A stretch of 40,683 nucleotides of DNA from a virus: the IMG/VR virus record IMGVR_UViG_3300005613_000153, positions 1 through 40,683 of that record. One strand, given 5' to 3'. Shown here piece by piece: positions 1 through 40,683 of this stretch. The notes under the pieces are model-generated. The model was given only the letters and a program-made list of their open reading frames with translations. It had not been told where the DNA came from and made no database searches. The position numbers and the translations under genes are program-made. The stretch's first letter is position 1, and every line of letters starts with the position of its first letter.

Positions 1-150
1 AATACAGAGACAGGCTTTATAACAATCAGTAATAACCATTGTTCTGTTACGATTAAAGACAATAAGATTAGATCAAGTATCGGCTTTATTACTCCGGCTG
101 ATAAGAAAAAAGCATTTAAAATTTATAATTCTATAATTAAGAAATCATGA
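1..150 (+). CDS. 3' end of small hypothetical protein (left-edge partial)
   Basis: The open frame enters from the left edge and ends at TGA 148-150. Its last residues, from about SVTIKDNK to the C-terminal IIKKS, are identical to the small protein at 34051-34221, while the part before base 61 is diverged but recognisably homologous. The stop overlaps the next start as ATGA, so it is translationally coupled to the recombinase gene. The function is unknown. It is the allelic counterpart of the 34.05-kb gene and shows where the left-end variant rejoins shared sequence. Confidence 0.7.
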   Translation, partial: NTETGFITISNNHCSVTIKDNKIRSSIGFITPADKKKAFKIYNSIIKKS

Positions 151-154
151 ATAA
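61..154 (+). repeat. Short shared block, copy 1 (partner 34132-34225)
   Basis: About 94 bases read identically here and at 34132-34225. They cover the end of the small hypothetical gene, the ATGA overlap and the first codons (MNN) of the following gene. Immediately after, the two copies encode unrelated proteins. This places the left boundary of the exchanged recombination cassette at a start codon. Confidence 0.85.
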
Positions 155-1028
155 CCTACAATTAAGAAAAGCAGAACGCAGACAGGCTAAAATGCGTGTT
201 GGTATATCTGGTCCATCAGGATCTGGTAAGACATATTCTGCACTTTTATTAGCATCCGGTATGACTGATTGGTCAAAGATAGCTTTAATTGATACAGAAA
301 ACGGAAGTGGTGAACTTTATGCCGATCTAGGTGATTACAATGTAATTACATTATCTGCACCATTTTCACCATCAAGATATGTTGAAGCTATAAAGGCTTG
401 TGAAAACGCAGGAATGGAAGTAATTATTATAGACAGTGCTACTCATGAATGGGATGGTGATGGGGGGTGTCTTGATATTCATTCTAAAATGGCTGGTAAT
501 AGTTTTACTAACTGGTCAAAAATCACACCAATGCACAATAGCTTTATACAGGCTATACTACAAAGCAAATGTCATATAATCACCACTACCCGTAGAAAGC
601 AAGATTATGATATGACGCAAAATAATGGTAAGACTACTGTTACTAAAGTAGGATTAAAAGAAATACAGCGTGATGGTTTTGAATATGAATTAACCCTATC
701 ATTTGATATTGATATTGCACATTTTGCACAAGCAGGTAAAGATCGTACTGGTTTGTTTATGGACAAGCCTGCATTCAGAATAACAAAAGAAACAGGCAAG
801 GTTATACTTGATTGGGCGAGCAGTGGCAAAGAAGCTATAAAAATAGAATATGAACCTACAGAAACTAAAGACCCTGTATCTACTCCTTTATTAGATAAAT
901 TAAAGGCTAAGGCAGATCTTAAAACTATTAATAAGGTGTGTGGTCTTAATTTAAAGAAAATAGAACACATAACTCAAGCACAAGCGACACAATGTTTAAT
1001 TCTTTTAATGCAACATAAAAATGACTAA
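147..1028 (+). CDS. RecA-fold AAA ATPase, Sak4-like recombinase
   Basis: This 293-residue protein is predicted to be an ATP-dependent single-strand annealing or strand-exchange protein. A Walker A motif GPSGSGKT lies near residues 22-29, and a hydrophobic strand ending in IIIDSATHEW near residue 95 fits Walker B. This layout matches the phage AAA_24/Sak4 group of RecA-like recombinases. It overlaps the preceding stop (ATGA) and the next start by 8 bases. Next come a PD-(D/E)XK nuclease and an SSB-like gene, the usual partners of phage recombinases. At the same position on the right end an unrelated annealase-like gene (34218-34916) is found, which supports the role by context. The family call rests on motifs only. 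Confidence 0.75.
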   Translation: MNNLQLRKAERRQAKMRVGISGPSGSGKTYSALLLASGMTDWSKIALIDTENGSGELYADLGDYNVITLSAPFSPSRYVEAIKACENAGMEVIIIDSATHEWDGDGGCLDIHSKMAGNSFTNWSKITPMHNSFIQAILQSKCHIITTTRRKQDYDMTQNNGKTTVTKVGLKEIQRDGFEYELTLSFDIDIAHFAQAGKDRTGLFMDKPAFRITKETGKVILDWASSGKEAIKIEYEPTETKDPVSTPLLDKLKAKADLKTINKVCGLNLKKIEHITQAQATQCLILLMQHKND

Positions 1029-1770
1029 TATTGAAACTCACAAATTATATAAAGGTGAAGTTGAAATAGCTTTTTATCCAGATTCTCACCGCTATAAACT
1101 AGCCGGAGAAAAAACTTATTTAATCGGTGTCACAACAGCGACAGGGATGTTAGACAAAAGTAGACCGTTATTGCATTGGTCGGCAGGTCTAGCACAAGAA
1201 TATTTACTATCACAATTACAGGAAGGACATCCGATAGATGAAGCTACTATATGCTCAGCAGTAAACCAGTATAATGAAAAGCGTGATAGTGCAGCAGATA
1301 CAGGAAGCAAAATACATGAATGGATTGAGCAATACCTTGACTCTGGAAATAAAGAAATACCGGAAGATCAACAGGTTGCACAAGGTGTTATAGCATTTCT
1401 TGATTGGATTGATAAAAATGATATTAAGTTTGAACACTCTGAAAAAATAGTTTATTCAAAAAAACATCAGTACGTTGGAAGGTTTGATGCAATAGCTAAT
1501 ATCAATGGAACACGTTATTTAATTGATTTTAAGAGCAGTAAAGGCGTGTATAATGATTTCAGATACCAATTATCAGCATATCTTGAGGCGTGGAACGAGG
1601 AATATAATGATAATATTACAAAGCGAATGATTGTTAAACTGGGAAAAGACACAGCAGAATTTGAAACCATTGAATTACCGGAAGAAGATCATCAAAAAGA
1701 TTTTGAATGTTTTATTTCACTTCTAACTCTTAAAAAAAGAGATAAAGAACTTTATAAATTTAATTCTTAA
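1021..1770 (+). CDS. PD-(D/E)XK exonuclease (RecB/Cas4-like)
   Basis: A 249-residue nuclease, probably the 5'-3' exonuclease partner of the upstream Sak4-like protein in recombination or end processing. The core is visible in the second half: GRFDAIANINGTRYLIDFKS supplies the Asp, then the D-x-K pair (IDFKSS), followed by YQLSAYLEAW, the Q-x-x-x-Y helix typical of RecB/Cas4-type nucleases. An N-terminal stretch with HRYKLAG and SAGLAQEYL resembles phage exonuclease VIII-like proteins. It overlaps the ATPase gene by 8 bases and is followed after 14 bases by the SSB-like gene. On the right end its place is taken by a YqaJ-family nuclease of different sequence. Confidence 0.8.
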   Translation: MTNIETHKLYKGEVEIAFYPDSHRYKLAGEKTYLIGVTTATGMLDKSRPLLHWSAGLAQEYLLSQLQEGHPIDEATICSAVNQYNEKRDSAADTGSKIHEWIEQYLDSGNKEIPEDQQVAQGVIAFLDWIDKNDIKFEHSEKIVYSKKHQYVGRFDAIANINGTRYLIDFKSSKGVYNDFRYQLSAYLEAWNEEYNDNITKRMIVKLGKDTAEFETIELPEEDHQKDFECFISLLTLKKRDKELYKFNS

Positions 1771-1784
1771 CATAATATAATATT

Positions 1785-2162
1785 ATGACACAATTTACTT
1801 ATTCAGCAGGTAAATCACAAAATGCCGAACTAAAGGCTGGTGAATATACTGTAATGATTACTAAGGCTGATATTGCCAACATACAAGGAGTTGAAAAACT
1901 TATTGTAGATTTTACACTTGAAAATAGTGATGTAAGAACAGAGTTTATTAAACCTGAAATGTGGATTCCTATATTTAAGGATTTACTTGAAGCATCAGGG
2001 CAAGAATTTAATGAAGAAGGTGGAGAGTTTGATACTGATTATCTTATTGGTATTGAGGGTACACTTGTAATGGGAGAAAACGAAGGCAAGGGAAAACATG
2101 AGGGTAAAACTTTTATTAATGCTGATAGATTTATTAAAAAGGAAGACGAAAAAAAAAATTAG
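1785..2162 (+). CDS. SSB-like protein (DUF669-like), allele 1
   Basis: A 125-residue acidic protein beginning MTQFTYSAGKSQNAELKAGE. It has a beta-rich core (YTVMITKADIA, LIVDFTLENSD) and a C-terminal GKHEGKTFINADRF block. This resembles the single-strand-binding-like proteins that accompany phage recombinases; that assignment leans on position and general pattern. The start follows TAATATT with no Shine-Dalgarno. The gene ends in ten consecutive A residues (2149-2158) followed by an in-frame TAG. A -1 shift on that run would fuse it to the downstream SWIM zinc-finger frame. The unrelated allele at 35945-36289 ends the same way. Confidence 0.65.
   Translation: MTQFTYSAGKSQNAELKAGEYTVMITKADIANIQGVEKLIVDFTLENSDVRTEFIKPEMWIPIFKDLLEASGQEFNEEGGEFDTDYLIGIEGTLVMGENEGKGKHEGKTFINADRFIKKEDEKKN
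2149..2158 (+). other. Poly-A slippery site before stop, -1 fusion signal
   Basis: Ten A residues precede TTAG at the end of the SSB-like gene and contain the classical -1 heptamer A AAA AAA. Reading -1 from here bypasses the TAG and enters the SWIM frame, which has no start codon of its own. The right-end copy has nine A residues (36277-36285) in the same phase relation. Both ribosomal frameshifting and transcriptional slippage on the A-run would give the fusion; which one operates cannot be read from sequence. Confidence 0.55.
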
Positions 2163-2437
2163 TAATCCAATCTAAAATTGTTAAAGGCAGTACAGGTAAT
2201 GAATATAAAATCACCACTATTAATGGTATTCCAAATTGCTCATGTCCTGCCTTTAAATACAAAGGTAAGTGTAAACACTTATCCCCTCACGATTTATCTA
2301 AGCTACGGAGAGAAGCCAGTAAAGCTGGCAACGCTATTACCCCGATGCTCTCTAATAACCCTCAATATGCTAGTGTAGAAGAAAAGGTTGAAAGCGATCC
2401 TGCATTAAAGGCATTTATGGAAGTATTTAATGATTAA
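2159..2437 (+). CDS. SWIM zinc-finger domain, -1 frame extension of SSB-like gene
   Basis: About 92 codons in the -1 frame relative to the SSB-like gene. The zinc-finger core is CSCPAFKYKGKCKHL, a C-x-C...C-x-H SWIM signature, followed by an HDLSKLRREASKAG helix and an acidic tail ending VFND. The frame is open only from just after a TAA at 2135-2137. It has no ATG, GTG or TTG before the zinc finger, so independent initiation is unlikely. SWIM domains bind DNA or protein, and fusion to an SSB-like partner would make a two-domain single-strand-binding protein. The same frame, essentially identical, follows the other SSB allele at 36286. A miscalled homopolymer, making one continuous gene, is the main alternative. 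Confidence 0.7.
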   Translation, partial: LVIQSKIVKGSTGNEYKITTINGIPNCSCPAFKYKGKCKHLSPHDLSKLRREASKAGNAITPMLSNNPQYASVEEKVESDPALKAFMEVFND

Positions 2438-2440
2438 ATA
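2421..2440 (+). repeat. 20-bp direct repeat, left of small gene (partner 2591-2610)
   Basis: The 20 bases from AAGTATTTAATG to ATTAAATA occur at the end of the SWIM frame and again at the end of the following 54-codon gene, so both proteins end in VFND. The small gene is thus bracketed by a direct repeat, as if inserted by duplication of a gene-end sequence. The arrangement is repeated in the right-end copy. Confidence 0.7.
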
Positions 2441-2442
2441 AT

Positions 2443-2607
2443 ATGAAATTAGCAGAAAAATTTGATATAACTAAATCCTCTAAAATGGTACTTACAGAAA
2501 AACCACCTAAAAATGCTATTATACAAATAGGAAATGAAACCTATCGTGTTTATTATCGCAGAGGTAATATTGCTTATGTTCAACTTATAAAAGTATTTAA
2601 TGATTAA
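2443..2607 (+). CDS. Hypothetical 54-aa protein
   Basis: A small ORF starting ATG after TAAATAAT and running MKLAEKFDITKSSKMVL to VQLIKVFND. It contains IQIGNETYRVYYRRGN, which looks like a short beta-rich, basic segment. No family is recognised. It sits tightly between the SWIM frame and the VRR-NUC gene, and is bracketed by 20-bp direct repeats. An identical copy lies at 36570-36734. Confidence 0.6.
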   Translation: MKLAEKFDITKSSKMVLTEKPPKNAIIQIGNETYRVYYRRGNIAYVQLIKVFND

Positions 2608-2609
2608 AT

Positions 2610-3020
2610 ATGTCAAAACACGAAGAAACTAAAGAGCAGTCTAAGTTTGTTAATTGGTGTAAAGAGCAAGGAGTTGAAGCATATGCTACAGCTCAAGCAA
2701 CTTATACTTCTAGCTGGTCTGCTATTAATCAAAATAAAGCTCTTGGTGTTAGAAGAGGCGTATCTGATTTAATTGTTTTTATACCGGCTACAAGATCAAC
2801 TACTAATAAAACCCACTTATTTTTTATAGAAATGAAGAAAGTAAAAGGAGGATATGCATCTAAAGAGCAGATATATTTTTTATCTCTAGTGGATCAGATA
2901 CAAGGCGATATTCATGGCAAAGTATGCAGAGGTTTTGAGGAGGCTAAACAATTTATACAGCCATTATTAAAAGATAAACCTATTATCGAACCTACGGAAG
3001 AATTTATTAACAATTTATAA
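2610..3020 (+). CDS. VRR-NUC domain endonuclease
   Basis: A 136-residue stand-alone VRR-NUC protein of the PD-(D/E)XK superfamily, the type of nuclease found in many phages and in FAN1. Diagnostic blocks are RRGVSDLIVF (catalytic Asp), FIEMKKVKGGYASKEQ (E-x-K followed by the conserved S-x-x-Q) and a C-terminal helix. It is predicted to cut branched DNA, for example during recombination or packaging clean-up. The upstream gene ends three bases before, and a small gene follows after two bases, suggesting one operon. An identical copy lies at 36737-37147. Confidence 0.85.
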   Translation: MSKHEETKEQSKFVNWCKEQGVEAYATAQATYTSSWSAINQNKALGVRRGVSDLIVFIPATRSTTNKTHLFFIEMKKVKGGYASKEQIYFLSLVDQIQGDIHGKVCRGFEEAKQFIQPLLKDKPIIEPTEEFINNL

Positions 3021-3022
3021 AT

Positions 3023-3223
3023 ATGATCGACCTAAAAAAAACATTAGAAGAGGCAAAGATAAGACAAACTTTCATAGCTGATTATTTTTCTACTTTATCA
3101 GGTAGAAAAGTACATAAGCAACAGATCAATAAAATGGTCAAAACTAATAAGCTAAGTAAAGGGTGGGAACTGGCTTTCAAAGAATATTTTAATAGACTGA
3201 ATATTAAAATATATTATAAATAG
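3023..3223 (+). CDS. Small helix-turn-helix-like protein, 66 aa
   Basis: A basic 66-residue protein with a helical pattern (LEEAKIRQTFIADYF, then RKVHKQQINKMVKTNKLSKGW). The second block could form the turn and recognition helix of a small DNA-binding domain, with KGWELAFKEYF closing the fold. The assignment is by pattern only. It lies two bases after the VRR-NUC gene and just upstream of a strong promoter candidate. An identical copy lies at 37150-37350. Confidence 0.6.
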   Translation: MIDLKKTLEEAKIRQTFIADYFSTLSGRKVHKQQINKMVKTNKLSKGWELAFKEYFNRLNIKIYYK

Positions 3224-3234
3224 TAAAAAAGGTA

Positions 3235-3263
3235 TTTACTTTATACTTAAAATTTGATATAAT
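3235..3263 (+). promoter_or_regulatory. Sigma70-like promoter, probably giving a leaderless mRNA
   Basis: TTTACT (3235-3240), a 17-base spacer and a perfect TATAAT (3258-3263). The expected start point, about seven bases downstream, falls on or next to the ATG at 3269, so the message would have essentially no 5' leader. The same -35 hexamer occurs in the promoter candidate at 31263. The right-end copy is at 37362-37390. Confidence 0.6.
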
Positions 3264-3268
3264 TAATT

Positions 3269-3433
3269 ATGATAACAAAAAAACAACTTATTGATCTTCT
3301 CGAAAAAATATCTTCTAATAGAACATTGAATATAGATGAAATGGCTATGTCAATAGAGCCTTTCTATAAATTATTAGATTATTCTGATGCTGAAACACAT
3401 GTTAAAGCAATAGTTAAAAATTTATATACTTAA
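3269..3433 (+). CDS. Hypothetical 54-aa helical protein
   Basis: Starts MITKKQLIDLLEKI and ends KAIVKNLYT. It is mostly charged and helical, with no cysteines or recognisable motif. Its ATG lies six bases after a TATAAT box, so it would be the first gene of a leaderless transcript. The function is unknown; position suggests a small regulator or host-takeover protein. An identical copy lies at 37396-37560. Confidence 0.6.
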   Translation: MITKKQLIDLLEKISSNRTLNIDEMAMSIEPFYKLLDYSDAETHVKAIVKNLYT

Positions 3434-3486
3434 ACCAAGCCCTGACAACGGCTCAAAACAAAAATACAACATAACCAAAAACAAAA

Positions 3487-3705
3487 ATGCTCCAAAATTT
3501 TATATTAGCCTTAGCAATATTTTACTTAATAGGCACATCAATACTAACTGTTAAAACAATATATAAATTATTATCACTTAATAACAAAAACAATGAAAAC
3601 AAAAATAAACAAAATAATACTGATCTTTTACCTGTCGCTAGCAATATTCGTATTATCTCAATGCGAAACAAAAATGGATTTACAACCAAAAGAATTACCT
3701 CATGA
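3487..3705 (+). CDS. Small single-pass membrane protein, 72 aa
   Basis: The N-terminus (residues 2-28, LQNFILALAIFYLIGTSIL...) is one strong membrane helix, followed by an Asn/Lys-rich tail. The last 113 bases overlap the start of the lipoprotein gene at 3593 in another frame. An inner-membrane protein overlapped by a lipoprotein gene resembles the Rz/Rz1 spanin arrangement, but no spanin family is recognised and the tail lacks a clear coiled coil. An identical copy lies at 37614-37832. Confidence 0.5.
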   Translation: MLQNFILALAIFYLIGTSILTVKTIYKLLSLNNKNNENKNKQNNTDLLPVASNIRIISMRNKNGFTTKRITS

Positions 3706-4168
3706 AAATATGTTTTTATTAGAAGCCAATGCCGATTATTGCGATAATGCTCCGGAATGTTATATACTTGATGAAAATGGTAATCAATTATTCTGGACAA
3801 AGATTTTAAATACAATAAGCAAGTATAAAGATAAAGAATGGATTATTAACAAAGTCGATCTTACATATTACGCACCGGATCAGGAGCAGATCATTGATTA
3901 TTTATATCGTCTTAATCCTGATCCTGATATGTTATATACCTTTAGAGCTGAAAGTGGTAATTTCAGCCCTCAACGTGTTGGTGTAACAGATGATCGTGGT
4001 ATGTGTCAGTTATCGCCTATATATCATTCTGCATTTATTAATAGTCCTGATTTCAATGATTGGCATAAACAGGCAGAATATTGTGTAAATGTTTATAAAA
4101 AAAGACCGACTGCATTTTATGGATATTATAAACGTCATGCACAAAAAAAATTCTTTAAATTTTATTAA
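3593..4168 (+). CDS. Lytic transglycosylase (SLT-like) lipoprotein
   Basis: 191 residues. The N-terminus is a signal peptide with a lipobox: IILIFYLSLAIFVLSQC, with Cys24 as the lipidated residue, so the mature protein would be membrane-anchored in a Gram-negative envelope. The domain near residues 105-180 carries FRAESGNFSPQRVG (Glu as candidate catalytic acid) and DDRGMCQLSPIYH, the pattern of SLT/lysozyme-like muramidases. It lies in the early arm, away from the lysis genes of the late arm, so envelope remodelling, superinfection exclusion or spanin-linked lysis are all possible. It overlaps the membrane-protein gene 3487-3705. An identical copy lies at 37720-38295. Confidence 0.7.
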   Translation: MKTKINKIILIFYLSLAIFVLSQCETKMDLQPKELPHENMFLLEANADYCDNAPECYILDENGNQLFWTKILNTISKYKDKEWIINKVDLTYYAPDQEQIIDYLYRLNPDPDMLYTFRAESGNFSPQRVGVTDDRGMCQLSPIYHSAFINSPDFNDWHKQAEYCVNVYKKRPTAFYGYYKRHAQKKFFKFY

Positions 4169-4169
4169 T

Positions 4170-4394
4170 ATGAACAGTTTAAAATATTTATTACCATCTT
4201 ATATCAGACAAGGAAAAGAATTATCACCTCCATCATATTCATTAGTATATGCAGGTAAATTCTGTAAATGTAATTCACCTCTTTATAAACGTGCTGATGG
4301 TAAAATAATATGTAAACGATGTAGTGATCCACAACCAATTAACAAAATGCTTAATGAGAAACCCCTTACCGAAACTAATAGACCACAGGCTTAA
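4170..4394 (+). CDS. Zinc-ribbon protein, 74 aa
   Basis: Start chosen at the ATG after TTATTAAT (4170). The protein has FCKCNSPLYKRADGKIICKRC, a C-x-C...C-x-x-C zinc ribbon, and a proline-rich C-terminus. It probably binds zinc and perhaps nucleic acid; no named family. It starts one base after the lipoprotein stop and overlaps the next gene. An identical copy lies at 38297-38521. Confidence 0.6.
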   Translation: MNSLKYLLPSYIRQGKELSPPSYSLVYAGKFCKCNSPLYKRADGKIICKRCSDPQPINKMLNEKPLTETNRPQA

Positions 4395-4539
4395 AGAAAT
4401 CAAAGAAACTCTCCCTGTTGATACTTTTATAGAATTAAATAAACTATCCCTCATTATGAGGATAGAAGATGACCCTGAGCATATTACTGATTTGTGCAGG
4501 AAATACAGAGAGATACTTAATAATCATTTTAACCAATAA
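4354..4539 (+). CDS. Hypothetical 61-aa helical protein
   Basis: Start taken at ATG 4354 (MRNPLPKLIDHRLKEIK). An upstream in-frame ATG at 4324 would extend it further into the zinc-ribbon gene. It contains charged helices with EDDPEHITDLCRKYREIL. No family is recognised. It is followed by five bases and the PcfJ-like gene, whose start has a weak AAGAAG Shine-Dalgarno-like string. An identical copy lies at 38481-38666. Confidence 0.55.
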   Translation: MRNPLPKLIDHRLKEIKETLPVDTFIELNKLSLIMRIEDDPEHITDLCRKYREILNNHFNQ

Positions 4540-4544
4540 GAAGA

Positions 4545-5633
4545 ATGAAATATCTACAATATATCAAAGAGTTTCAAGAAGATAATAAAGCAGGAAAATA
4601 CTTTGTTGAAAATCAGCTAAAGAAACACCTTGAAACTAATCCTGAAAATCAAACAGAGATTGAACATATACTTGATTATCTATATTCAACCAGGAAGAAG
4701 TTTAAGGTAGGATATAAAACAATTAAAGAAAAAGCTGATAAGTGGTCTAAAAAATTACAAGAGACTTCAAGTAAGGATAATGAAGTTGAGGGTACAGATT
4801 ATGAAGTTGTAAAGAAATGGAAAGATTTTAGGTTTGTAAAACTTATAAGTAAACAGGCTTATGAATTAGAGGGTAAAAGAATGAGCCATTGTGTTAGTAG
4901 TTATTATGGCAAAGATGATGAGATATATTCCTTAAGGGATAAGAATAATAAACCTCATTGTACCATTTCAAAGCAAAGTGAACAGATTAAGGGTAAAGGT
5001 AATGGTGCTATCCACCCTACTTATATTAAGTATGTAGTTGAATTTTTAGAACATCTAAAGGTTGATGTTAGAGATAGTGAAATGAAAAACTTAGGATATA
5101 TTAATATAGAAACATTGTTGCCCGATATTAAGAATAAGAAAGACTTATTTAGAGGTAAATATTGGAATAAGGAACATGTTAAACTAATTGGAAAAAGCGG
5201 AAAGGAATATTTATCATTAGACCTATTAGATTATATTGATTTAATTAGCGAAACTAATACAGGACTTAAAATTAATTTTGAATTACCACATTTTATTAAA
5301 TGCTCTATTGATTTTTTACTTAGCAACTCAAAAAAATTATTATCAAAGAATGCAAGTAGTGGGGATTACTCAACGAATGCAAGTAGCGGGAATTACTCAA
5401 CGAATGCAAGTAGTGGGTATTCATCAAAGAATGAAATGACAGGTAAAAATTCTATTTCAGTAGATGCAGGACATAATGGTAAAGCAAAAGGGAAAATAGG
5501 TTGTTGGTTTTGTCTAAGTGAATGGAAAAATGGTAAACCATATCATGTAGAAGCTTTCTATATTGATGGTAAAAAAATAAAGGAGGACACATGGTATATG
5601 CTTAAAAATAAGAAATTAACCCCTAACCAATAA
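4545..5633 (+). CDS. PcfJ-like protein with Asn-Ala-Ser-Ser-Gly repeats
   Basis: 362 residues. The middle part carries the signature of PcfJ-like proteins of plasmids and phages: GKRMSHCVSSYYGKDDEIYS followed by an SLR and a PHCTIS strand. The biochemical role of the family is not established. The C-terminal third holds a 9-residue, 27-base repeat (NASSGDYST, NASSGNYST, NASSGYSSK; about 5349-5430) leading into a Gly/Asn-rich stretch and GCWFCLSEW. The repeats may form a short beta-helix, a feature shared with the repeat protein at 5872. An identical copy lies at 38672-39760. Confidence 0.65.
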   Translation: MKYLQYIKEFQEDNKAGKYFVENQLKKHLETNPENQTEIEHILDYLYSTRKKFKVGYKTIKEKADKWSKKLQETSSKDNEVEGTDYEVVKKWKDFRFVKLISKQAYELEGKRMSHCVSSYYGKDDEIYSLRDKNNKPHCTISKQSEQIKGKGNGAIHPTYIKYVVEFLEHLKVDVRDSEMKNLGYINIETLLPDIKNKKDLFRGKYWNKEHVKLIGKSGKEYLSLDLLDYIDLISETNTGLKINFELPHFIKCSIDFLLSNSKKLLSKNASSGDYSTNASSGNYSTNASSGYSSKNEMTGKNSISVDAGHNGKAKGKIGCWFCLSEWKNGKPYHVEAFYIDGKKIKEDTWYMLKNKKLTPNQ

Positions 5634-5638
5634 GAAAG

Positions 5639-5848
5639 ATGAAGGAGCTTACCAAAGAACAAGCCCTAAATGAAGCACAATACTGTAATGACTTACCAAT
5701 AGCCCGTCAATGTTGTATCTGCAAAGAAGCTATGGATAAACCTTCTTCAGTCATAATGGATATAAGGAATAAGATAGAGCATGTAGTGAGTCATGGATAT
5801 CACGAAGATTGTTACGAGAAATGGGAAAAAGGAGAAATAATAACTTAA
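5639..5848 (+). CDS. Small zinc-binding protein, alternative C-terminus 1
   Basis: 69 residues beginning MKELTKEQALNEAQYC. QCCICKEAMD supplies the first metal pair and HGYHEDCYEKW the second, a treble-clef or RING-like pattern. Shared sequence with the right-end copy stops inside this gene: after VSH this copy ends GYHEDCYEKWEKGEIIT, whereas the 39766 copy ends TFCPSCDEEYYKKNNL. Both tails keep Cys/His ligands, so the recombination junction preserved a zinc site. It has a weak AAGAAAG before the start. Confidence 0.65.
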   Translation: MKELTKEQALNEAQYCNDLPIARQCCICKEAMDKPSSVIMDIRNKIEHVVSHGYHEDCYEKWEKGEIIT

Positions 5849-5871: not shown

Positions 5872-6345
5872 ATGCCAAAAATAACTTTAGAAAACGGACA
5901 AGAGGTAGAAATATCTAAAAAGTCCTATGATGAACTTTCAAAAGCAGTTCAGATTAAACCTACACCTAGTAGTGGAATAGGAATAGATTATAAATTACTA
6001 TGTGATTGTAAGTTTGATAAGCCTATTCTTGTAAACGATAAACCTACTTATAAAGTATTTATTAACCAATCATTTGCTGATAATAGTGTATTTGGAAATT
6101 TTTGTGTATTTATAAAGTGTAAGTTTGGTTCATACTGTGAGTTTGGTTCATACTGTGAGTTTGGTTCATACTGTGAGTTTGGTTCAGGCTGTAACTTTGG
6201 TTCATACTGTAAGTTTGGTTCAGGCTGTAACTTTGGTTCATACTGTGAGTTTGGTTCATACTGTGAGTTTGGTTCAGACTGTAAGTTTGGTTCATACTGT
6301 ATAAAAAATACCCCTTACTGGATTGCGGATAAGAAATATGAATAA
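5872..6345 (+). CDS. Cysteine-ladder hexapeptide-repeat protein
   Basis: 157 residues, start chosen at the ATG after TTTTAATAACT. After an N-terminal region (MPKITLENGQEVEI), ten tandem six-residue units of the form (E/K/N)FGS(Y/G/D)C fill residues about 84-143, preceded by degenerate units (VFGNFC, VFIKC). Phe recurs at one position and Cys at another every six residues, which suits a left-handed beta-helix-type coil with a ladder of stacked Cys. Disulfide or metal binding along the ladder is inference. It occurs only in the left-end variant, between the zinc protein and the Dam methyltransferase. Confidence 0.6.
   Translation: MPKITLENGQEVEISKKSYDELSKAVQIKPTPSSGIGIDYKLLCDCKFDKPILVNDKPTYKVFINQSFADNSVFGNFCVFIKCKFGSYCEFGSYCEFGSYCEFGSGCNFGSYCKFGSGCNFGSYCEFGSYCEFGSDCKFGSYCIKNTPYWIADKKYE
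6121..6300 (+). repeat. Ten tandem 18-bp repeats
   Basis: Ten in-frame 18-base units based on GAGTTTGGTTCATACTGT encode the hexapeptide array. Units differ by only a few bases (AAG, GAG or AAC first codon; TAC, GGC or GAC fifth codon), indicating recent expansion and likely length variation between strains. Confidence 0.9.
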
Positions 6346-17499: not shown

Positions 17500-18648
17500 T
17501 TAAAAGTTAAATCCTACCATTACACCTGCACCTCCTGCACCTCCTACACCTTCTATACCAAATACTTGCGTAAAGCCGTCAAAATCAGCACCCTGCCAGA
17601 AGTTGATGAAGTGGCTACTATCTACTTGATAGCAGGAGTTGGCGATACCAACTCCTGTGTCAAATTCTAAATTTGAGTTAGCTGTAGTTACAGCCCAAGT
17701 AGATGTGTCTACCTCAAAGACCTGTGTAAAGCCACCCGCACCATTACCAGTCCAGAAGTTGATGAAATGATTTGAGTCTACTTGATAACAGGAGTTGTAC
17801 TGACCTGAAACTGTATCAAACTCTAATCTACTACCTGCCGTTGTAACAGCCCAAGTTGAGGTGTCTACTGTAAAGGCTTGAACATATCCATCGATACCAT
17901 CACCACTCCAAAAGTTGATGAAGTGATTGCTATCGATTTGATAGCAGGAATTATACTCATTCTGAACTGTATCAAATTCCAAACTTGAGTTAGCCGTAGT
18001 TACAGCCCAAGTTGAGGTGTTTACTGTGAATACCTGAACATAGCCATCTGCCCCAGCAGTACCAGACCAAAAGTTGATGAAATGATTACTGTCTACTTGG
18101 TAACATGAGTTGTACAGACTCAAGTTAGTATCGAATTCTAAACTTGCACCTGCTGGCGAAACTGCCCAAGTCGAAGTATTTACCTCAAAGACCTGCGTAA
18201 ATCCATCCGTATCAGTACCAGACCAAAAGTTGATGAAATGATTTGAGTCTACTTGGTAGCAGGAATTGAAAGTATTGTCTGTCACAGAAAATTCATACGA
18301 ATTATTGGCTGTTGTAATTGCCCAAGTCGAAGTATTTACTGTGAATACCTGCGTAAATCCATCCGTATCAGCACTACCTCTAAAAAAGTTGATAAAATGA
18401 TTTGAGTCTATCTGATAGCAGGAATTATAATTACCCCAATTGGTATCAAACTCTAATCTACTACCTGCTGTAGTTACAGCCCATGTTGAGGTATTTACCT
18501 CAAAGACCTGCGTAAACCCGTCAAAATCAGCACCCTGCCAAAAGTTGATGAAGTGGTTACTGTCAATTTGGTAGCAGGAATTAGAATCACTATAAACTGT
18601 ATCGAATTCCAGCCTACTTCCCGATGTTGTAATTGCCCAATTTGCCAT
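17500..18648 (-). CDS. Seven-repeat beta-propeller protein
   Basis: 382 residues made of seven units of 52-53 residues, each with NSCYQ(I/V)DSNHFINFW, a GFTQVF or GYVQVF strand, and STWAVTTAGSRLEFDT. The chain opens with NWAITTSGSRLEFDT, the missing last strand of a unit, and unit seven ends after GFTQVFGI, so N- and C-terminal pieces would close one blade (velcro closure). That gives exactly seven blades. A Gly-rich tail follows. Propellers in virions commonly bind receptors or stabilise tails. Near-identical units suggest recent duplication. It lies between a glycosyltransferase and a membrane-anchored protein. Confidence 0.7.
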   Translation of the reverse strand: MANWAITTSGSRLEFDTVYSDSNSCYQIDSNHFINFWQGADFDGFTQVFEVNTSTWAVTTAGSRLEFDTNWGNYNSCYQIDSNHFINFFRGSADTDGFTQVFTVNTSTWAITTANNSYEFSVTDNTFNSCYQVDSNHFINFWSGTDTDGFTQVFEVNTSTWAVSPAGASLEFDTNLSLYNSCYQVDSNHFINFWSGTAGADGYVQVFTVNTSTWAVTTANSSLEFDTVQNEYNSCYQIDSNHFINFWSGDGIDGYVQAFTVDTSTWAVTTAGSRLEFDTVSGQYNSCYQVDSNHFINFWTGNGAGGFTQVFEVDTSTWAVTTANSNLEFDTGVGIANSCYQVDSSHFINFWQGADFDGFTQVFGIEGVGGAGGAGVMVGFNF

Positions 18649-26385: not shown

Positions 26386-26673
26386 TTATTTTTTTCTGCC
26401 CTTATAAACACGATTACTACGAAGAGATTTTCCTAGAGTACGCTTTAATCCTTTTACCTTAGCAGCTCCTTTAGCTATTCCTTTACTACGAAGAGATTTT
26501 CCTAGAGTACGCTTTAATCCTTTTACCTTAGCAGCTCCTTTAGCTATTCCTTTACTACGAAGAGATTTTCCTAGAGTACGCTTTAATCCTTTTACCTTTA
26601 CGTTTATTCTTCTTTGTCTTGCTGCACCAGCAGCAGCTCCTTTAGCTATTCCTTTTAAAGATTTTTTTAACAT
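26386..26673 (-). CDS. Highly basic repeat protein (protamine-like)
   Basis: 95 residues, strongly basic. Three copies of a 23-residue unit, VKGLKRTLGKSLRSKGIAKG followed by AAK, fill most of the chain; the first 20 residues (MLKKSLKGIAKGAAAG) resemble part of the unit. The composition (Lys, Arg, Gly, Ala, Leu; almost no acidic residues) resembles viral core or DNA-condensing proteins. It sits directly after the portal gene, so packaging, DNA condensation or ejection are plausible roles. No family recognised. Confidence 0.6.
   Translation of the reverse strand: MLKKSLKGIAKGAAAGAARQRRINVKVKGLKRTLGKSLRSKGIAKGAAKVKGLKRTLGKSLRSKGIAKGAAKVKGLKRTLGKSLRSNRVYKGRKK
26416..26600 (-). repeat. Tandem 69-bp coding repeats
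   Basis: The motif ACTACGAAGAGATTTTCC starts at 26416, 26485 and 26554, a period of 69 bases, with essentially identical units; the third is partial. It encodes the 23-residue basic repeat. The lack of divergence points to very recent duplication and possible copy-number variation. Confidence 0.9.
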
Positions 26674-31052: not shown

Positions 31053-31114
31053 GGCAAAACATACGTTTTAGGGGCAATATTATAAAACAAAAAAAAATTA
31101 TGACAAACACCAAA

Positions 31115-34050: not shown

Positions 34051-34221
34051 ATGTGTAAAGCTGTAGATGTCCAAAAAGATATAAACTTTGTAACTATAGA
34101 TGGCGATCATTGGTCGGTTACAATAAAGGATAATAAGATTAGATCAAGTATCGGCTTTATTACTCCGGCTGATAAGAAAAAAGCATTTAAAATTTATAAT
34201 TCTATAATTAAGAAATCATGA
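34051..34221 (+). CDS. Small hypothetical protein, 56 aa
   Basis: Start at ATG 34051 (MCKAVDVQKDINFVTIDGDH); a TTG start at 34015 is possible but lies inside the stem structure. The C-terminal half (SVTIKDNKIRSSIGF...IIKKS) is identical to the partial gene at 1-150. TGA overlaps the next start (ATGA). Function unknown; always upstream of the recombinase gene. Confidence 0.65.
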   Translation: MCKAVDVQKDINFVTIDGDHWSVTIKDNKIRSSIGFITPADKKKAFKIYNSIIKKS

Positions 34222-34225
34222 ATAA
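34132..34225 (+). repeat. Short shared block, copy 2 (partner 61-154)
   Basis: Same 94 bases as 61-154. Downstream, the right-end variant encodes an annealase-like protein beginning MNNLIP instead of the Sak4-like protein beginning MNNLQL, so the exchange point is at the shared MNN start. Confidence 0.85.
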
Positions 34226-34916
34226 TTTAATACCAACCAATAATGATTCTGTTAATCAACTTATAGCTGATAAAAGACAAATAGCCGATCTTATGAGTAG
34301 GGTATTAAAAAAGGATGAGCATTATGGCATTATACCTGGTACTAATAAACCTGCTCTATATAAATCCGGAGCAGAAATTATCGCCCGCACTTTTGGGATT
34401 CATGCGAAAATGGAAATAAATAAAACAGATTTAGGAGATGAAAATAGAGAATATGAGGTAATATGTCGTATGTATAAAAACTCTGATAATCAACCAATAG
34501 GAGAAGGTGTAGGGATGTGTTCTACAATGGAAAAGAAATATAGGTGGAGGACAGTCAAGAAATTTAATAAAGAAGAAGGTAAACAAGTAGAAGAACAAAT
34601 AGAAAATCCTAATATGGCTGATCTGTATAATACAATTCTTAAAATGGCTAAAAAACGTGCTTTCGTTGATGCTATTATAAGCTCTTGTGCAGCTTCTGAT
34701 TTTGTAACTCAAGATCTAGAGGATTATATAGATATAGAAGAACCGGAAGAATGGGAAGCGGAAATTGAAATGTTAGATGATTTAAATCAATTAAAAAAAT
34801 ATTGGAATGATAATAAAGGTAAAGGTGCTAAATTTGATAAAGCAATAATGGATCGTAAAGCTATTTTAGAAACTAATTTAAAGCAAGATGAAAATACATC
34901 AAATACCACAAAATAG
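34218..34916 (+). CDS. Single-strand annealing protein candidate
   Basis: 232 residues with no Walker motif. HYGIIPGTNKPALYKSGAEI then IARTFGIHAKMEI is the conserved block of a widespread phage recombination-associated group: a metal- and ATP-independent, Rad52/ERF-like annealase is the likely class. EVICRMYKNSDNQPIGEGVG, KYRWRTVKKFN and TILKMAKKRAFVDAI complete the core. The acidic C-terminal tail may contact SSB. The start overlaps the previous stop, and it overlaps the YqaJ nuclease by 29 bases. It replaces the Sak4-like ATPase of the left end. Confidence 0.65.
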   Translation: MNNLIPTNNDSVNQLIADKRQIADLMSRVLKKDEHYGIIPGTNKPALYKSGAEIIARTFGIHAKMEINKTDLGDENREYEVICRMYKNSDNQPIGEGVGMCSTMEKKYRWRTVKKFNKEEGKQVEEQIENPNMADLYNTILKMAKKRAFVDAIISSCAASDFVTQDLEDYIDIEEPEEWEAEIEMLDDLNQLKKYWNDNKGKGAKFDKAIMDRKAILETNLKQDENTSNTTK

Positions 34917-35529
34917 TCCGGAGTGGCTAGAATTAAGAAAGGGTAAATTAACAGCCTCTAAAGCTCAAGCTATTGCCACAGCAGGTAAAGGACTGGAAAC
35001 TTTATGTTATGAGATTATAGCAGCAAAGTATAGCTCAGCAGAGTATATAAATTATACTAACGATGATATAGAGCGTGGTCATTTATTAGAGGAGCAAGCT
35101 AGGGAAATGTACGAGTTAGAAACAGGCAATAAGATTGAACTTATAGGTTTTATAGAAGCAGACGAGCAATCAGGAGCTAGTCCTGATGGTTTGATAGGTG
35201 AAGATGGACTAATAGAAATCAAATGCCCAAATGATAAAAATTATTTAAAAAATGTTATATTAGGAGAAAATGGTATAGATAGTGGATATATTTGGCAAAT
35301 GCAAATGCAAATGTACATAACAAATAGAAAATATTGTATTTTTTTAAGTTACAATCCAAACTTTACTTTAAGTTTGTTTTACGTTAAAATTAAAAGGGAT
35401 GAAGATAAAATAAAAAAAATAAAAATAGGTATAGAACAAGGTAAAAAAATATTAACATCTTTAGAAAATGAGTGGAATGCTAGGGAAAAAACATTCGGAA
35501 AAGGCGAAAGCAAAAATGAGAAAGGCTAA
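34888..35529 (+). CDS. YqaJ-family exonuclease
   Basis: 213 residues in the lambda-exonuclease/YqaJ family. Motifs: NSPEWLELRKGKLTASKAQA at the N-terminus (DNA-binding start of the family), DIERGHLLEEQAREMYE (catalytic Glu helix), GASPDGLIGEDGLIEIKCPN (catalytic D...ExK) and IWQMQMQMYITNRKYCIFLS. It resects DNA ends for the annealase. The last residues (REKTFGKGESKNEKG) overlap a NUMOD3-HNH homing endonuclease, so the native C-terminus has probably been replaced by invading sequence. Confidence 0.88.
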   Translation: MKIHQIPQNSPEWLELRKGKLTASKAQAIATAGKGLETLCYEIIAAKYSSAEYINYTNDDIERGHLLEEQAREMYELETGNKIELIGFIEADEQSGASPDGLIGEDGLIEIKCPNDKNYLKNVILGENGIDSGYIWQMQMQMYITNRKYCIFLSYNPNFTLSLFYVKIKRDEDKIKKIKIGIEQGKKILTSLENEWNAREKTFGKGESKNEKG

Positions 35530-35932
35530 ACTTGGTGTTTTTGATGGCAAAAAAAATCCATTTTACGGGAAAAAACATTCGGAAAAAACAAGAAAAAAAA
35601 TGCGACAAGCTAAATTGAATAATCCTACAAGATATTGGTTAGGCAAAAAAAGAGATAAAAATACTATAGATAAAATTATAAAAGCCAATACATTACCAGA
35701 TGAAGAATTAAAATATAGTTCGATACATACAAAGATTACTAAAAACTATGGTACTCCAAAATATTGTGAGATTTGTAAAAGCACTAATAAAAAAATATAT
35801 GATTGGTCAAATAAAGATCATAAATATAGTTTAAAAAGAAAAGATTGGCAAAGACTATGTAGATCATGTCATATAAAATACGATATAAAATATAACAATT
35901 TAGGTAAAAAATATTTAAAACTTATTTCTTAA
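35468..35932 (+). CDS. NUMOD3-HNH homing endonuclease
   Basis: 154 residues. The N-terminal half has NUMOD3 repeats (LGKKHSEKAKAKMRKAK; YGKKHSEKTRKKMRQAK; WLGKKRDKNTIDKI) that bind DNA. The C-terminal half has CEICKSTNKKIYDWSNKDH and WQRLCRSCHIKYD, the C-x-x-C...H...C-x-x-C-H HNH nuclease. It overlaps the 3' end of the YqaJ gene by 62 bases; ATG 35477 is an alternative start. It is absent from the left-end cassette. No intron core is seen, so it is a free-standing endonuclease gene. Confidence 0.85.
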   Translation: MSGMLGKKHSEKAKAKMRKAKLGVFDGKKNPFYGKKHSEKTRKKMRQAKLNNPTRYWLGKKRDKNTIDKIIKANTLPDEELKYSSIHTKITKNYGTPKYCEICKSTNKKIYDWSNKDHKYSLKRKDWQRLCRSCHIKYDIKYNNLGKKYLKLIS

Positions 35933-35944
35933 TTTTATTTGAAT

Positions 35945-36289
35945 ATGCAATATAAAAAAACTAATGCTGTCAATATGATAGCTGATGGTGAACATGAGGG
36001 TGTAATAACTCGTGTATCTATTTATAACAACCCATCCGGAGCTGATAAGCTAATAGTAGAAATCAGTTTGGAAGATGGTACTTTATTTGGTCATTTCTTT
36101 ACACCTGGATTTGATTCATTTGATGATCTAATTAGGGTTGTAGGTGATACACCTAAGCAAAAAGGGGAATTTGATGAACAAAAATTAGTTAATAAAATGG
36201 TAACATTTGAAACTAAAATTTCAGAAGCTAAAAATGGTAATGAATATTGTAATGTTGTTTGGATTAAAGAATTGGTAAAAAAAAATTAG
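35945..36289 (+). CDS. SSB-like protein, allele 2
   Basis: 114 residues, start at ATG 35945 (MQYKKTNAVNMIADGEHEGV). OB-like beta pattern: VITRVSIYNNPSGADKLIVE, LFGHFFTPGFDSFDDLIRV, and KMVTFETKISEAKNGNEYCN. This is the single-strand-binding-like component of the annealase/YqaJ cassette. It ends in nine A residues (36277-36285) and TAG. A -1 shift enters the SWIM frame, as in the unrelated-looking allele at 1785-2162. The phase is preserved despite different upstream sequences. Confidence 0.65.
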   Translation: MQYKKTNAVNMIADGEHEGVITRVSIYNNPSGADKLIVEISLEDGTLFGHFFTPGFDSFDDLIRVVGDTPKQKGEFDEQKLVNKMVTFETKISEAKNGNEYCNVVWIKELVKKN

Positions 36290-36564
36290 TAATCCAATCT
36301 AAAATTGTTAAAGGCAGTACAGGTAATGAATATAAAATAACTTATGTTAATGGTATTCCAAATTGCTCATGTCCTGCCTTTAAATACAAAGGTAAGTGTA
36401 AACACTTATCCCCTCACGATTTATCTAAGCTACGGAGAGAAGCCAGTAAAGCTGGCAACGCTATTACCCCGATGCTCTCTAATAACCCTCAATATGCTAG
36501 TGTAGAAGAAAAGGTTGAAAGCGATCCTGCATTAAAGGCATTTATGGAAGTATTTAATGATTAA
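36286..36564 (+). CDS. SWIM zinc-finger -1 frame, copy 2
   Basis: The same SWIM frame as at 2159-2437, apart from a few residues near its start (ITYVNG here, ITTING there). The zinc core CSCPAFKYKGKCKHL is unchanged. Upstream it is open only from after TAA 36265-36267, with no usable start codon, so it again depends on a -1 shift from the SSB-like gene through the nine-A run. Confidence 0.7.
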   Translation, partial: LVIQSKIVKGSTGNEYKITYVNGIPNCSCPAFKYKGKCKHLSPHDLSKLRREASKAGNAITPMLSNNPQYASVEEKVESDPALKAFMEVFND

Positions 36565-36569
36565 ATAAT

Positions 36570-36734
36570 ATGAAATTAGCAGAAAAATTTGATATAACTA
36601 AATCCTCTAAAATGGTACTTACAGAAAAACCACCTAAAAATGCTATTATACAAATAGGAAATGAAACCTATCGTGTTTATTATCGCAGAGGTAATATTGC
36701 TTATGTTCAACTTATAAAAGTATTTAATGATTAA
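36570..36734 (+). CDS. Hypothetical 54-aa protein, copy 2
   Basis: Identical to 2443-2607, including the bracketing 20-bp direct repeats at gene ends. No family recognised. Confidence 0.6.
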   Translation: MKLAEKFDITKSSKMVLTEKPPKNAIIQIGNETYRVYYRRGNIAYVQLIKVFND

Positions 36735-36736
36735 AT

Positions 36737-37147
36737 ATGTCAAAACACGAAGAAACTAAAGAGCAGTCTAAGTTTGTTAATTGGTGTAAAGAGCAAGGAG
36801 TTGAAGCATATGCTACAGCTCAAGCAACTTATACTTCTAGCTGGTCTGCTATTAATCAAAATAAAGCTCTTGGTGTTAGAAGAGGCGTATCTGATTTAAT
36901 TGTTTTTATACCGGCTACAAGATCAACTACTAATAAAACCCACTTATTTTTTATAGAAATGAAGAAAGTAAAAGGAGGATATGCATCTAAAGAGCAGATA
37001 TATTTTTTATCTCTAGTGGATCAGATACAAGGCGATATTCATGGCAAAGTATGCAGAGGTTTTGAGGAGGCTAAACAATTTATACAGCCATTATTAAAAG
37101 ATAAACCTATTATCGAACCTACGGAAGAATTTATTAACAATTTATAA
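36737..37147 (+). CDS. VRR-NUC endonuclease, copy 2
   Basis: Identical to the 136-residue protein at 2610-3020, with RRGVSDLIVF and FIEMKKVKGGYASKEQ as the nuclease blocks. Here it follows the annealase/YqaJ cassette rather than the Sak4 cassette, so the nuclease is shared by both genome variants. Confidence 0.85.
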   Translation: MSKHEETKEQSKFVNWCKEQGVEAYATAQATYTSSWSAINQNKALGVRRGVSDLIVFIPATRSTTNKTHLFFIEMKKVKGGYASKEQIYFLSLVDQIQGDIHGKVCRGFEEAKQFIQPLLKDKPIIEPTEEFINNL

Positions 37148-37149
37148 AT

Positions 37150-37350
37150 ATGATCGACCTAAAAAAAACATTAGAAGAGGCAAAGATAAGACAAACTTTC
37201 ATAGCTGATTATTTTTCTACTTTATCAGGTAGAAAAGTACATAAGCAACAGATCAATAAAATGGTCAAAACTAATAAGCTAAGTAAAGGGTGGGAACTGG
37301 CTTTCAAAGAATATTTTAATAGACTGAATATTAAAATATATTATAAATAG
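37150..37350 (+). CDS. Helix-turn-helix-like protein, copy 2
   Basis: Identical to 3023-3223. Small basic helical protein upstream of the TTTACT/TATAAT promoter. Confidence 0.6.
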   Translation: MIDLKKTLEEAKIRQTFIADYFSTLSGRKVHKQQINKMVKTNKLSKGWELAFKEYFNRLNIKIYYK

Positions 37351-37361
37351 TAAAAAAGGTA

Positions 37362-37390
37362 TTTACTTTATACTTAAAATTTGATATAAT
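37362..37390 (+). promoter_or_regulatory. Leaderless-type promoter, copy 2
   Basis: TTTACT, 17 bases, TATAAT, identical to 3235-3263; the ATG of the next gene is at 37396. Confidence 0.6.
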
Positions 37391-37395
37391 TAATT

Positions 37396-37560
37396 ATGAT
37401 AACAAAAAAACAACTTATTGATCTTCTCGAAAAAATATCTTCTAATAGAACATTGAATATAGATGAAATGGCTATGTCAATAGAGCCTTTCTATAAATTA
37501 TTAGATTATTCTGATGCTGAAACACATGTTAAAGCAATAGTTAAAAATTTATATACTTAA
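37396..37560 (+). CDS. Hypothetical 54-aa helical protein, copy 2
   Basis: Identical to 3269-3433; first gene after the leaderless-type promoter. Confidence 0.6.
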   Translation: MITKKQLIDLLEKISSNRTLNIDEMAMSIEPFYKLLDYSDAETHVKAIVKNLYT

Positions 37561-37613
37561 ACCAAGCCCTGACAACGGCTCAAAACAAAAATACAACATA
37601 ACCAAAAACAAAA

Positions 37614-37832
37614 ATGCTCCAAAATTTTATATTAGCCTTAGCAATATTTTACTTAATAGGCACATCAATACTAACTGTTAAAACAATATATAAATTATTA
37701 TCACTTAATAACAAAAACAATGAAAACAAAAATAAACAAAATAATACTGATCTTTTACCTGTCGCTAGCAATATTCGTATTATCTCAATGCGAAACAAAA
37801 ATGGATTTACAACCAAAAGAATTACCTCATGA
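37614..37832 (+). CDS. Small membrane protein, copy 2
   Basis: Identical to 3487-3705; single N-terminal membrane helix, overlapping the lipoprotein gene. Confidence 0.5.
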   Translation: MLQNFILALAIFYLIGTSILTVKTIYKLLSLNNKNNENKNKQNNTDLLPVASNIRIISMRNKNGFTTKRITS

Positions 37833-38295
37833 AAATATGTTTTTATTAGAAGCCAATGCCGATTATTGCGATAATGCTCCGGAATGTTATATACTTGATG
37901 AAAATGGTAATCAATTATTCTGGACAAAGATTTTAAATACAATAAGCAAGTATAAAGATAAAGAATGGATTATTAACAAAGTCGATCTTACATATTACGC
38001 ACCGGATCAGGAGCAGATCATTGATTATTTATATCGTCTTAATCCTGATCCTGATATGTTATATACCTTTAGAGCTGAAAGTGGTAATTTCAGCCCTCAA
38101 CGTGTTGGTGTAACAGATGATCGTGGTATGTGTCAGTTATCGCCTATATATCATTCTGCATTTATTAATAGTCCTGATTTCAATGATTGGCATAAACAGG
38201 CAGAATATTGTGTAAATGTTTATAAAAAAAGACCGACTGCATTTTATGGATATTATAAACGTCATGCACAAAAAAAATTCTTTAAATTTTATTAA
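37720..38295 (+). CDS. SLT-like lipoprotein, copy 2
   Basis: Identical to 3593-4168: lipobox FVLSQC, FRAESGNFSP and DDRGMCQLSP of the transglycosylase-like domain. Confidence 0.7.
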   Translation: MKTKINKIILIFYLSLAIFVLSQCETKMDLQPKELPHENMFLLEANADYCDNAPECYILDENGNQLFWTKILNTISKYKDKEWIINKVDLTYYAPDQEQIIDYLYRLNPDPDMLYTFRAESGNFSPQRVGVTDDRGMCQLSPIYHSAFINSPDFNDWHKQAEYCVNVYKKRPTAFYGYYKRHAQKKFFKFY

Positions 38296-38296
38296 T

Positions 38297-38521
38297 ATGA
38301 ACAGTTTAAAATATTTATTACCATCTTATATCAGACAAGGAAAAGAATTATCACCTCCATCATATTCATTAGTATATGCAGGTAAATTCTGTAAATGTAA
38401 TTCACCTCTTTATAAACGTGCTGATGGTAAAATAATATGTAAACGATGTAGTGATCCACAACCAATTAACAAAATGCTTAATGAGAAACCCCTTACCGAA
38501 ACTAATAGACCACAGGCTTAA
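38297..38521 (+). CDS. Zinc-ribbon protein, copy 2
   Basis: Identical to 4170-4394, with FCKCNSPLY and IICKRC as the zinc ligands. Confidence 0.6.
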   Translation: MNSLKYLLPSYIRQGKELSPPSYSLVYAGKFCKCNSPLYKRADGKIICKRCSDPQPINKMLNEKPLTETNRPQA

Positions 38522-38666
38522 AGAAATCAAAGAAACTCTCCCTGTTGATACTTTTATAGAATTAAATAAACTATCCCTCATTATGAGGATAGAAGATGAC
38601 CCTGAGCATATTACTGATTTGTGCAGGAAATACAGAGAGATACTTAATAATCATTTTAACCAATAA
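38481..38666 (+). CDS. Hypothetical 61-aa protein, copy 2
   Basis: Identical to 4354-4539; overlaps the zinc-ribbon gene and precedes the PcfJ-like gene by five bases. Confidence 0.55.
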   Translation: MRNPLPKLIDHRLKEIKETLPVDTFIELNKLSLIMRIEDDPEHITDLCRKYREILNNHFNQ

Positions 38667-38671
38667 GAAGA

Positions 38672-39760: not shown

Positions 39761-39765
39761 GAAAG

Positions 39766-39972
39766 ATGAAGGAGCTTACCAAAGAACAAGCCCTAAATGA
39801 AGCACAATACTGTAATGACTTACCAATAGCCCGTCAATGTTGTATCTGCAAAGAAGCTATGGATAAACCTTCTTCAGTCATAATGGATATAAGGAATAAG
39901 ATAGAACATTTAGTGAGTCACACTTTTTGCCCCTCATGTGATGAAGAATATTATAAGAAAAATAATCTATGA
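39766..39972 (+). CDS. Small zinc-binding protein, alternative C-terminus 2
   Basis: 68 residues. The first 48 or so are shared with 5639-5848, with one or two substitutions at the junction (HLVSH versus HVVSH). The tail TFCPSCDEEYYKKNNL carries C-x-x-C in place of H-x-x-x-C. The stop overlaps the start of the methyltransferase (ATGA), coupling the two genes. Confidence 0.65.
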   Translation: MKELTKEQALNEAQYCNDLPIARQCCICKEAMDKPSSVIMDIRNKIEHLVSHTFCPSCDEEYYKKNNL

Positions 39973-40670: not shown

Positions 40671-40683
40671 CTGGACAAGAGTT

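Follow-up and report, generated by a model that had tools for sequence, protein, structure and literature searches.

How a reading frame without a start codon of its own could be translated is the question raised by two loci in the window, i.e., the whole 40,683-nucleotide stretch of viral DNA analyzed here (IMG/VR record IMGVR_UViG_3300005613_000153), which carries an SU10-like portal and a primase. At both loci, a gene for a protein resembling single-stranded DNA (ssDNA)-binding proteins (SSBs) ends just behind a run of adenines, as GAA AAA AAA AAT TAG in SSB1 and as GTA AAA AAA AAT TAG in SSB2, and is followed by a SWIM zinc-finger frame in the −1 phase (Table 1). The earlier note had reported an A10 and an A9 run, each with an immediate TAG, and located both exactly; its description of a −1 SWIM frame closed upstream by TAA is likewise confirmed, the frame being opened by TAA 2135–2137 and TAA 36265–36267 and extending to 2437 and 36564, respectively. 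As also claimed there, the frame lacks a start codon: from the A-run to the zinc finger, neither window copy has an ATG, GTG, or TTG in this frame. Under a dinucleotide model, the chance of a run of nine or more adenines (A9+) in a 22-nt interval is 0.2–0.8% per locus. The sole other A9 run of the window (31089–31097) is intergenic. We discarded the possibility that the TAG is read as an amino acid, since the 0-frame in the window continues as TAG TAA. We regard it as very probable that programmed recoding, whether by the polymerase or by the ribosome, yields both SSB and SSB-SWIM. This conclusion is drawn without RNA or protein data; it rests on sequence comparison, namely on the geometry of the junctions, their conservation, the selection on SWIM, and the avoidance of A9+ runs elsewhere, and the occurrence of recoding in cells is inferred, as is the suggestion in the earlier note that SSB and SSB-SWIM are made in a set ratio.

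Table 1. Features of the two SSB-SWIM loci and of their surroundings in the window.
Feature	Position	Strand	Basis or remark
AAA_24/Sak4-like RecA-fold ATPase	147–1028	+	PF13479 E=1.5e-18; phrog_124 Sak4-like E=1e-8; upstream of SSB1
PD-(D/E)XK exonuclease	1021–1770	+	phrog_298 exonuclease E=1e-36; upstream of SSB1
SSB1, OB-fold ssDNA-binding-like (putative), 125 aa, 0-frame product	1785–2162	+	PHROG_378 'single strand DNA binding protein' E=2.6e-4
Start-less SWIM zinc-finger frame, −1 to SSB1	2138–2437	+	PF04434
A10 slippage run	2149–2158	+	First A at codon position 2
TAG stop of SSB1	2160–2162	+	1 nt past the run
VRR-NUC nuclease gene, after SWIM	2610–3020	+	PF08774 E=2.4e-6; second copy 36737–37147
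YqaJ/RecE-like exonuclease	34888–35529	+	PF09588 E=2e-22; upstream of SSB2
NUMOD3 homing-endonuclease-like gene	35468–35932		Right module; overlaps the YqaJ gene
SSB2, alternative SSB allele, 114 aa	35945–36289	+	Alignment with other SSBs; AlphaFold OB fold
SWIM frame behind SSB2, second copy	36268–36564	+	Protein 95% identical
A9 slippage run	36277–36285	+	First A at codon position 3
Second copy of 2150–5793	36277–39920	+	99.8%
TAG stop of SSB2	36287–36289	+	

The two loci do not constitute two independent cases. The second copy extends over 3,644 bp and starts at the A-run, and 37–154 matches 34108–34225 as well; because of these recurrences, the window contig is seen to circle a genome of ~34.1 kb more than once, joining two population variants. 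The self-overlap (1–2150, 34108–36277, and 36277–40683) contains two alternative recombination modules ahead of the same SWIM, the left consisting of the Sak4-like ATPase, the PD-(D/E)XK exonuclease, and SSB1, and the right of a phrog_10048 protein, the YqaJ exonuclease, the NUMOD3 endonuclease, and SSB2. SSB1 and SSB2 are 28% identical and differ in run length and codon phase. The argument of the earlier note that two SSB alleles keep the same phase, A-run, and stop is true as seen but weak, the DNA from the run onward being shared (99.8%); the copies were therefore rejected as independent alleles, only their upstream halves being independent, and it is the relatives that carry the case. The window further contains imperfect repeats inside a 382-aa ORF (17500–18648), a 116-bp exact repeat at an offset of 69 bp (26414–26598), and a tandem repeat near 6.1–6.3 kb (6118–6301).

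Relatives were found via primase, VRR-NUC, or SSB searches, in which an A-run played no part, and provide four further junctions in five contigs (G003, G004, L021, identical to L022, and L043), with a single SWIM locus per record. All four have an A9 run with SWIM at −1, and their SWIM proteins are 34–49% identical to that of the window, so that the comparison of homologous phages proposed in the earlier note bears out conservation of both the run and the phase. The run begins at codon position 1 in G003, G004, and L043 and at position 2 in L021, as against 2 or 3 in the window. The 0-frame stop lies 3–5 nt beyond the run in the relatives, as in GAT AAA AAA AAA CAA TAG of G004, and 1–5 nt beyond it over all six junctions; the stop of the SWIM frame, a TAA or TGA, abuts the run at each of the four junctions of the relatives, which confines the frame change to 10–13 nt there. 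Across the junctions, the frames overlap by 10–22 nt, and the run is always inside. Gain of one A opens 92–115 codons of SWIM, and loss of one A leads to a stop within 4–9 codons, so that only the +1A product is new. Two criteria of programmed recoding are met by this arrangement: the frames overlap and the downstream one has no usable start, and a shift-prone A9 or A10 is inside the overlap at all six distinct junctions across divergent homologues.

The same junctions bear on two explanations that dispense with recoding. Phase variation, in which replication slippage in the A-run would fuse and separate SSB and SWIM among progeny as a DNA-level on/off switch, is compatible with the mutability of homopolymers and with the finding of run lengths of both 9 and 10; it also predicts fused copies, yet one and the same off-phase is found at each of the six distinct junctions (seven contig copies), the A10 of SSB1 being offset by a different codon phase. 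Alternatively, one continuous SSB-SWIM ORF with A11 or A10 may have been misread in sequencing or assembly, given the proneness of homopolymers to error and the mosaic, overlapping assembly of the window contig, but the identical off-by-one recurs in divergent contigs that come from separate metagenome accessions and vary in run length and codon phase, and a 0-frame stop closely follows the run at every junction. Because all junctions sit in the same off-phase, we consider the switch improbable and give hardly any credence to the error. A run length fusing the two genes, which the earlier note had named as a possible refutation, is found in none of the sequenced copies.

Regarding the relatives themselves, the ends of the G004 contig (IMGVR 3300038701_002087) overlap by exactly 127 bp (L006 end and L010 start), and the record, though classed as linear, is therefore probably complete and circular, with 36,268 bp. 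Around the run, the junction blocks of G003 (L011, minus strand) and L043 (5346–5376) agree at ~29 of 31 nt, and their SWIM proteins are otherwise only ~32% identical; either a recombination joint or a nucleotide-level constraint may underlie this likeness. Single-sequence SWIM searches of viral contigs and phage records returned no matches, the relatives having been reached via neighboring genes, and a search of viral contigs for the pattern of A9 plus SWIM motif revealed no new SSB-SWIM. Two contigs from the pattern were rejected: L042 is a chance match, and the SWIM protein encoded by L039 is in frame and of a different type; in it (466–583, minus strand, of a 72 kb phage contig), the A9 precedes SWIM in frame and slippage would truncate rather than extend the product. 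The pattern search of bacterial genomes gave 115 stretches, with no SSB-SWIM relative among those scanned; a profile search of bacterial genomes also gave none, and a weak lead from the SWIM of G004 to phrog_7104 (E=0.003) had no outcome. The number of lineages is small.

The SWIM frame is recognizable as a domain and evolves as a coding sequence. Its first window copy matches PF04434 (E=2.4e-4, 21.0 bits; cut-off 19.6), with CSC starting at 2237 and CKH following; L021 scores 21.3 bits, above the cut-off, and L011 (G003) 16.9, below it. No PF04434 match is reported for L010 (G004) or L043, the latter being recognized through a family profile, and CxC...CKH is kept in all. Between the SWIM proteins of G003 and G004 (66% amino acid identity), differences at the three codon positions number 29/17/53 and Ka/Ks is 0.15, and the dominance of third-position differences and this ratio indicate that the frame is under purifying selection. 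A structure prediction of SWIM was set aside because of its low confidence (pTM 0.34). Such a frame might encode a separate protein, initiated behind the SSB stop either by translational coupling or at a rare start codon, as the frames are adjacent and an ATA overlaps the stop (ATAG) in G003, G004, and L043. The ATA is, however, missing in the window and L021; the window and G004 are devoid of ATG, GTG, and TTG ahead of the zinc finger, and the only candidate in G003, L021, and L043 is a GTG 3–10 codons before the finger, from which initiation would remove the strands preceding it. Furthermore, a separate protein leaves unexplained why A9 is conserved where A9 is otherwise avoided, and we hold this explanation to be very unlikely. 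Separate SWIM start codons in relatives, the other refutation envisaged in the earlier note, were not found ahead of the SWIM domain.

The SSB part is less uniform than the junction. One loose family comprises the SSBs of the window, G003, L021, and L043, which are 28–62% identical in the alignments made, and PHROG_378 is matched by the SSB of L021 as well as by SSB1. The AlphaFold model of SSB2 (pLDDT 84) has as its best PDB match PrgE (Foldseek E=1.7e-5, TM 0.62–0.65, 18% identity), the OB-fold SSB of plasmid pCF10 (PMC11137577); the likeness of SSB2 to PrgE and to the PHROG_378 phage SSBs lies in its predicted fold, whereas identity is low and the match is limited to the SSB part. On these weak profile matches and the fold match, the window SSBs are predicted to be OB-fold SSB-like proteins, and ssDNA binding is inferred. 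Phages RIO-1 and VPMCC5 possess distant SSBs of this family without SWIM, whose tails are tryptophan-tipped (related Zobellviridae SSBs), and no run of six or more adenines occurs in these two SWIM-less SSBs. The SSB of G004 belongs to a different, gp32-like family (phrog_1192 E=2e-10) and has no similarity to that of G003 in BLASTP; its joint, GAT AAA AAA AAA CAA TAG, is nevertheless identical, with the same A9 and SWIM.

The proposed mechanism is as follows. Normal reading would produce SSB alone, with a short lysine-rich tail and a stop at TAG, and RNA-polymerase slippage adding one A in the run would lead into the −1 frame and hence to SSB-SWIM, comprising the same ssDNA-binding OB fold followed by the SWIM zinc finger and a helical tail; as a less likely alternative, the ribosome would slip back one base into the same frame. 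The recoding interpretation of the earlier note is supported, with RNA-polymerase slippage on A9+ preferred to the A_AAA_AAA ribosomal heptamer as its mechanism. That the polymerase slips is inferred, and we favor it with some reserve as the main route because the run length is fixed at 9 or more with variable phase, A9+ and not A7 is avoided, and stimulators are not conserved. A run of about nine or more A or T, the criterion for transcriptional slippage, is present at all junctions, and many bacteria show selection against slippage at a length of nine (PMC1088944). In five genomes, coding-strand A9+ runs number 3 in all phases against ~18–19 expected from codon shuffling, and all 3 are SSB-SWIM junctions; the count omits the junctions of the window and G004, whose genes are cut in the stretches used and hence were not called. 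In the same genomes, no such avoidance applies to exact A7 in the phase of the ribosomal heptamer (29 observed, 21 expected). The avoidance of A9+ could instead reflect replication slippage.

Classical −1 programmed ribosomal frameshifting on A_AAA_AAA, with the mRNA unaltered, nevertheless remains a real possibility as the main route to SSB-SWIM, if the less likely one. The heptamer is in phase at six of six junctions, though this is unavoidable in any A9 run. The shift direction is −1 in all six, and constant direction is taken as a sign of ribosomal frameshifting by Antonov et al. (PMC3711429), in whose scheme variation in direction between homologues is permitted but not required for transcriptional slippage. 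E. coli ribosomes slide in vitro weakly at A9–A10 and strongly at A11 (PMC4363877). A Shine-Dalgarno (SD)-like GAGG/AGGA lies at a stimulatory distance, 7–14 nt upstream, at the first window junction, G003, and L021 but is missing at the second window junction, G004, and L043, and no conserved downstream hairpin was detected at the six junctions (z 0.77, −0.30, −1.53, −0.69, −2.36, and −0.09); the criterion of a conserved stimulator is therefore not met, although some proven cases also lack one. The motif A_AAA_AAG is among the most efficient in E. coli (PMC4066793), yet it is in frame at none of the six junctions. Moreover, A7 would be enough for the ribosome and is common in phase elsewhere in these genomes, yet the runs are all 9–10 long with variable phase.

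Programmed recoding in phages is known mostly from tail and capsid genes; in SSB-SWIM, it appears to govern the composition of the ssDNA-binding filament on which phage replication and recombination take place. No recoded SSB or SSB-SWIM protein was found described in the open-licence literature, which does not prove its absence. Among known systems, Thermus thermophilus dnaX (tau/gamma) also has A9 in a DNA-replication gene and two products, one of them shorter (PMC1088944), but the templated frame of dnaX gives the long product, whereas that of SSB-SWIM gives the short one and the long one needs slippage. A9 is also used by some bacterial IS elements (PMC1088944); in these and in Shigella mxiE and spa13, an added base joins overlapping frames and a fraction of the protein gains a C-terminal domain, although the genes and the biology are other than those of a phage SSB. 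A minority C-terminally extended product likewise arises in the phage gpG/gpGT tail-assembly chaperone and in coat-protein frameshifts into an Ig domain, which is mobile between phages (PMC5009743); those cases are ribosomal and affect structural genes, whereas SSB-SWIM is a replication/recombination gene with a homopolymer of 9–10.

The role of SSB-SWIM is inferred from its neighbors. The gene adjoins a RecA-like ATPase or a RecE/YqaJ-type exonuclease, plus the VRR-NUC nuclease, the latter kept beside SWIM also in G003, G004, and L021/L022. The SWIM proteins SWS1/Shu2 of the Shu complex act alongside Rad51 paralogues, and the Sak4-like ATPase gene of the left module would parallel this pairing of SWIM with a RecA/Rad51-type ATPase; the likeness of the phage SWIM to SWS1/Shu2 rests, however, on the CxC...CxH zinc motif alone. 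On SSB-coated ssDNA, a minority SSB-SWIM subunit may recruit or regulate the Sak4-like ATPase, the exonuclease, and VRR-NUC, and a ratio-controlled accessory function in recombination or replication is an inference only. More speculatively, the A-run might, besides being the site of recoding, serve as a modular joint, upstream of which SSBs, even unrelated ones, are swapped while SWIM stays, and a small share of SWIM subunits, set by the RNA polymerase, might mediate recombinase loading as a phage counterpart of Shu-type SWIM factors; we put this forward tentatively and would not be surprised to see it fail. Selection is visible in that the run is kept where such runs are otherwise avoided and persists where a non-homologous SSB has taken the place of the other. 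Because gene callers would miss SWIM, a start-less fragment, other genomes may contain similar fusions that have gone unnoticed. Finally, the tails of the SSBs made without a shift are rich in lysine (window 2145–2159 and 36275–36286; L010, L011, and L043) and not tryptophan-tipped like those of the related Zobellviridae SSBs, and in the SSB tail of L021 an acidic stretch lies ahead of the lysines.
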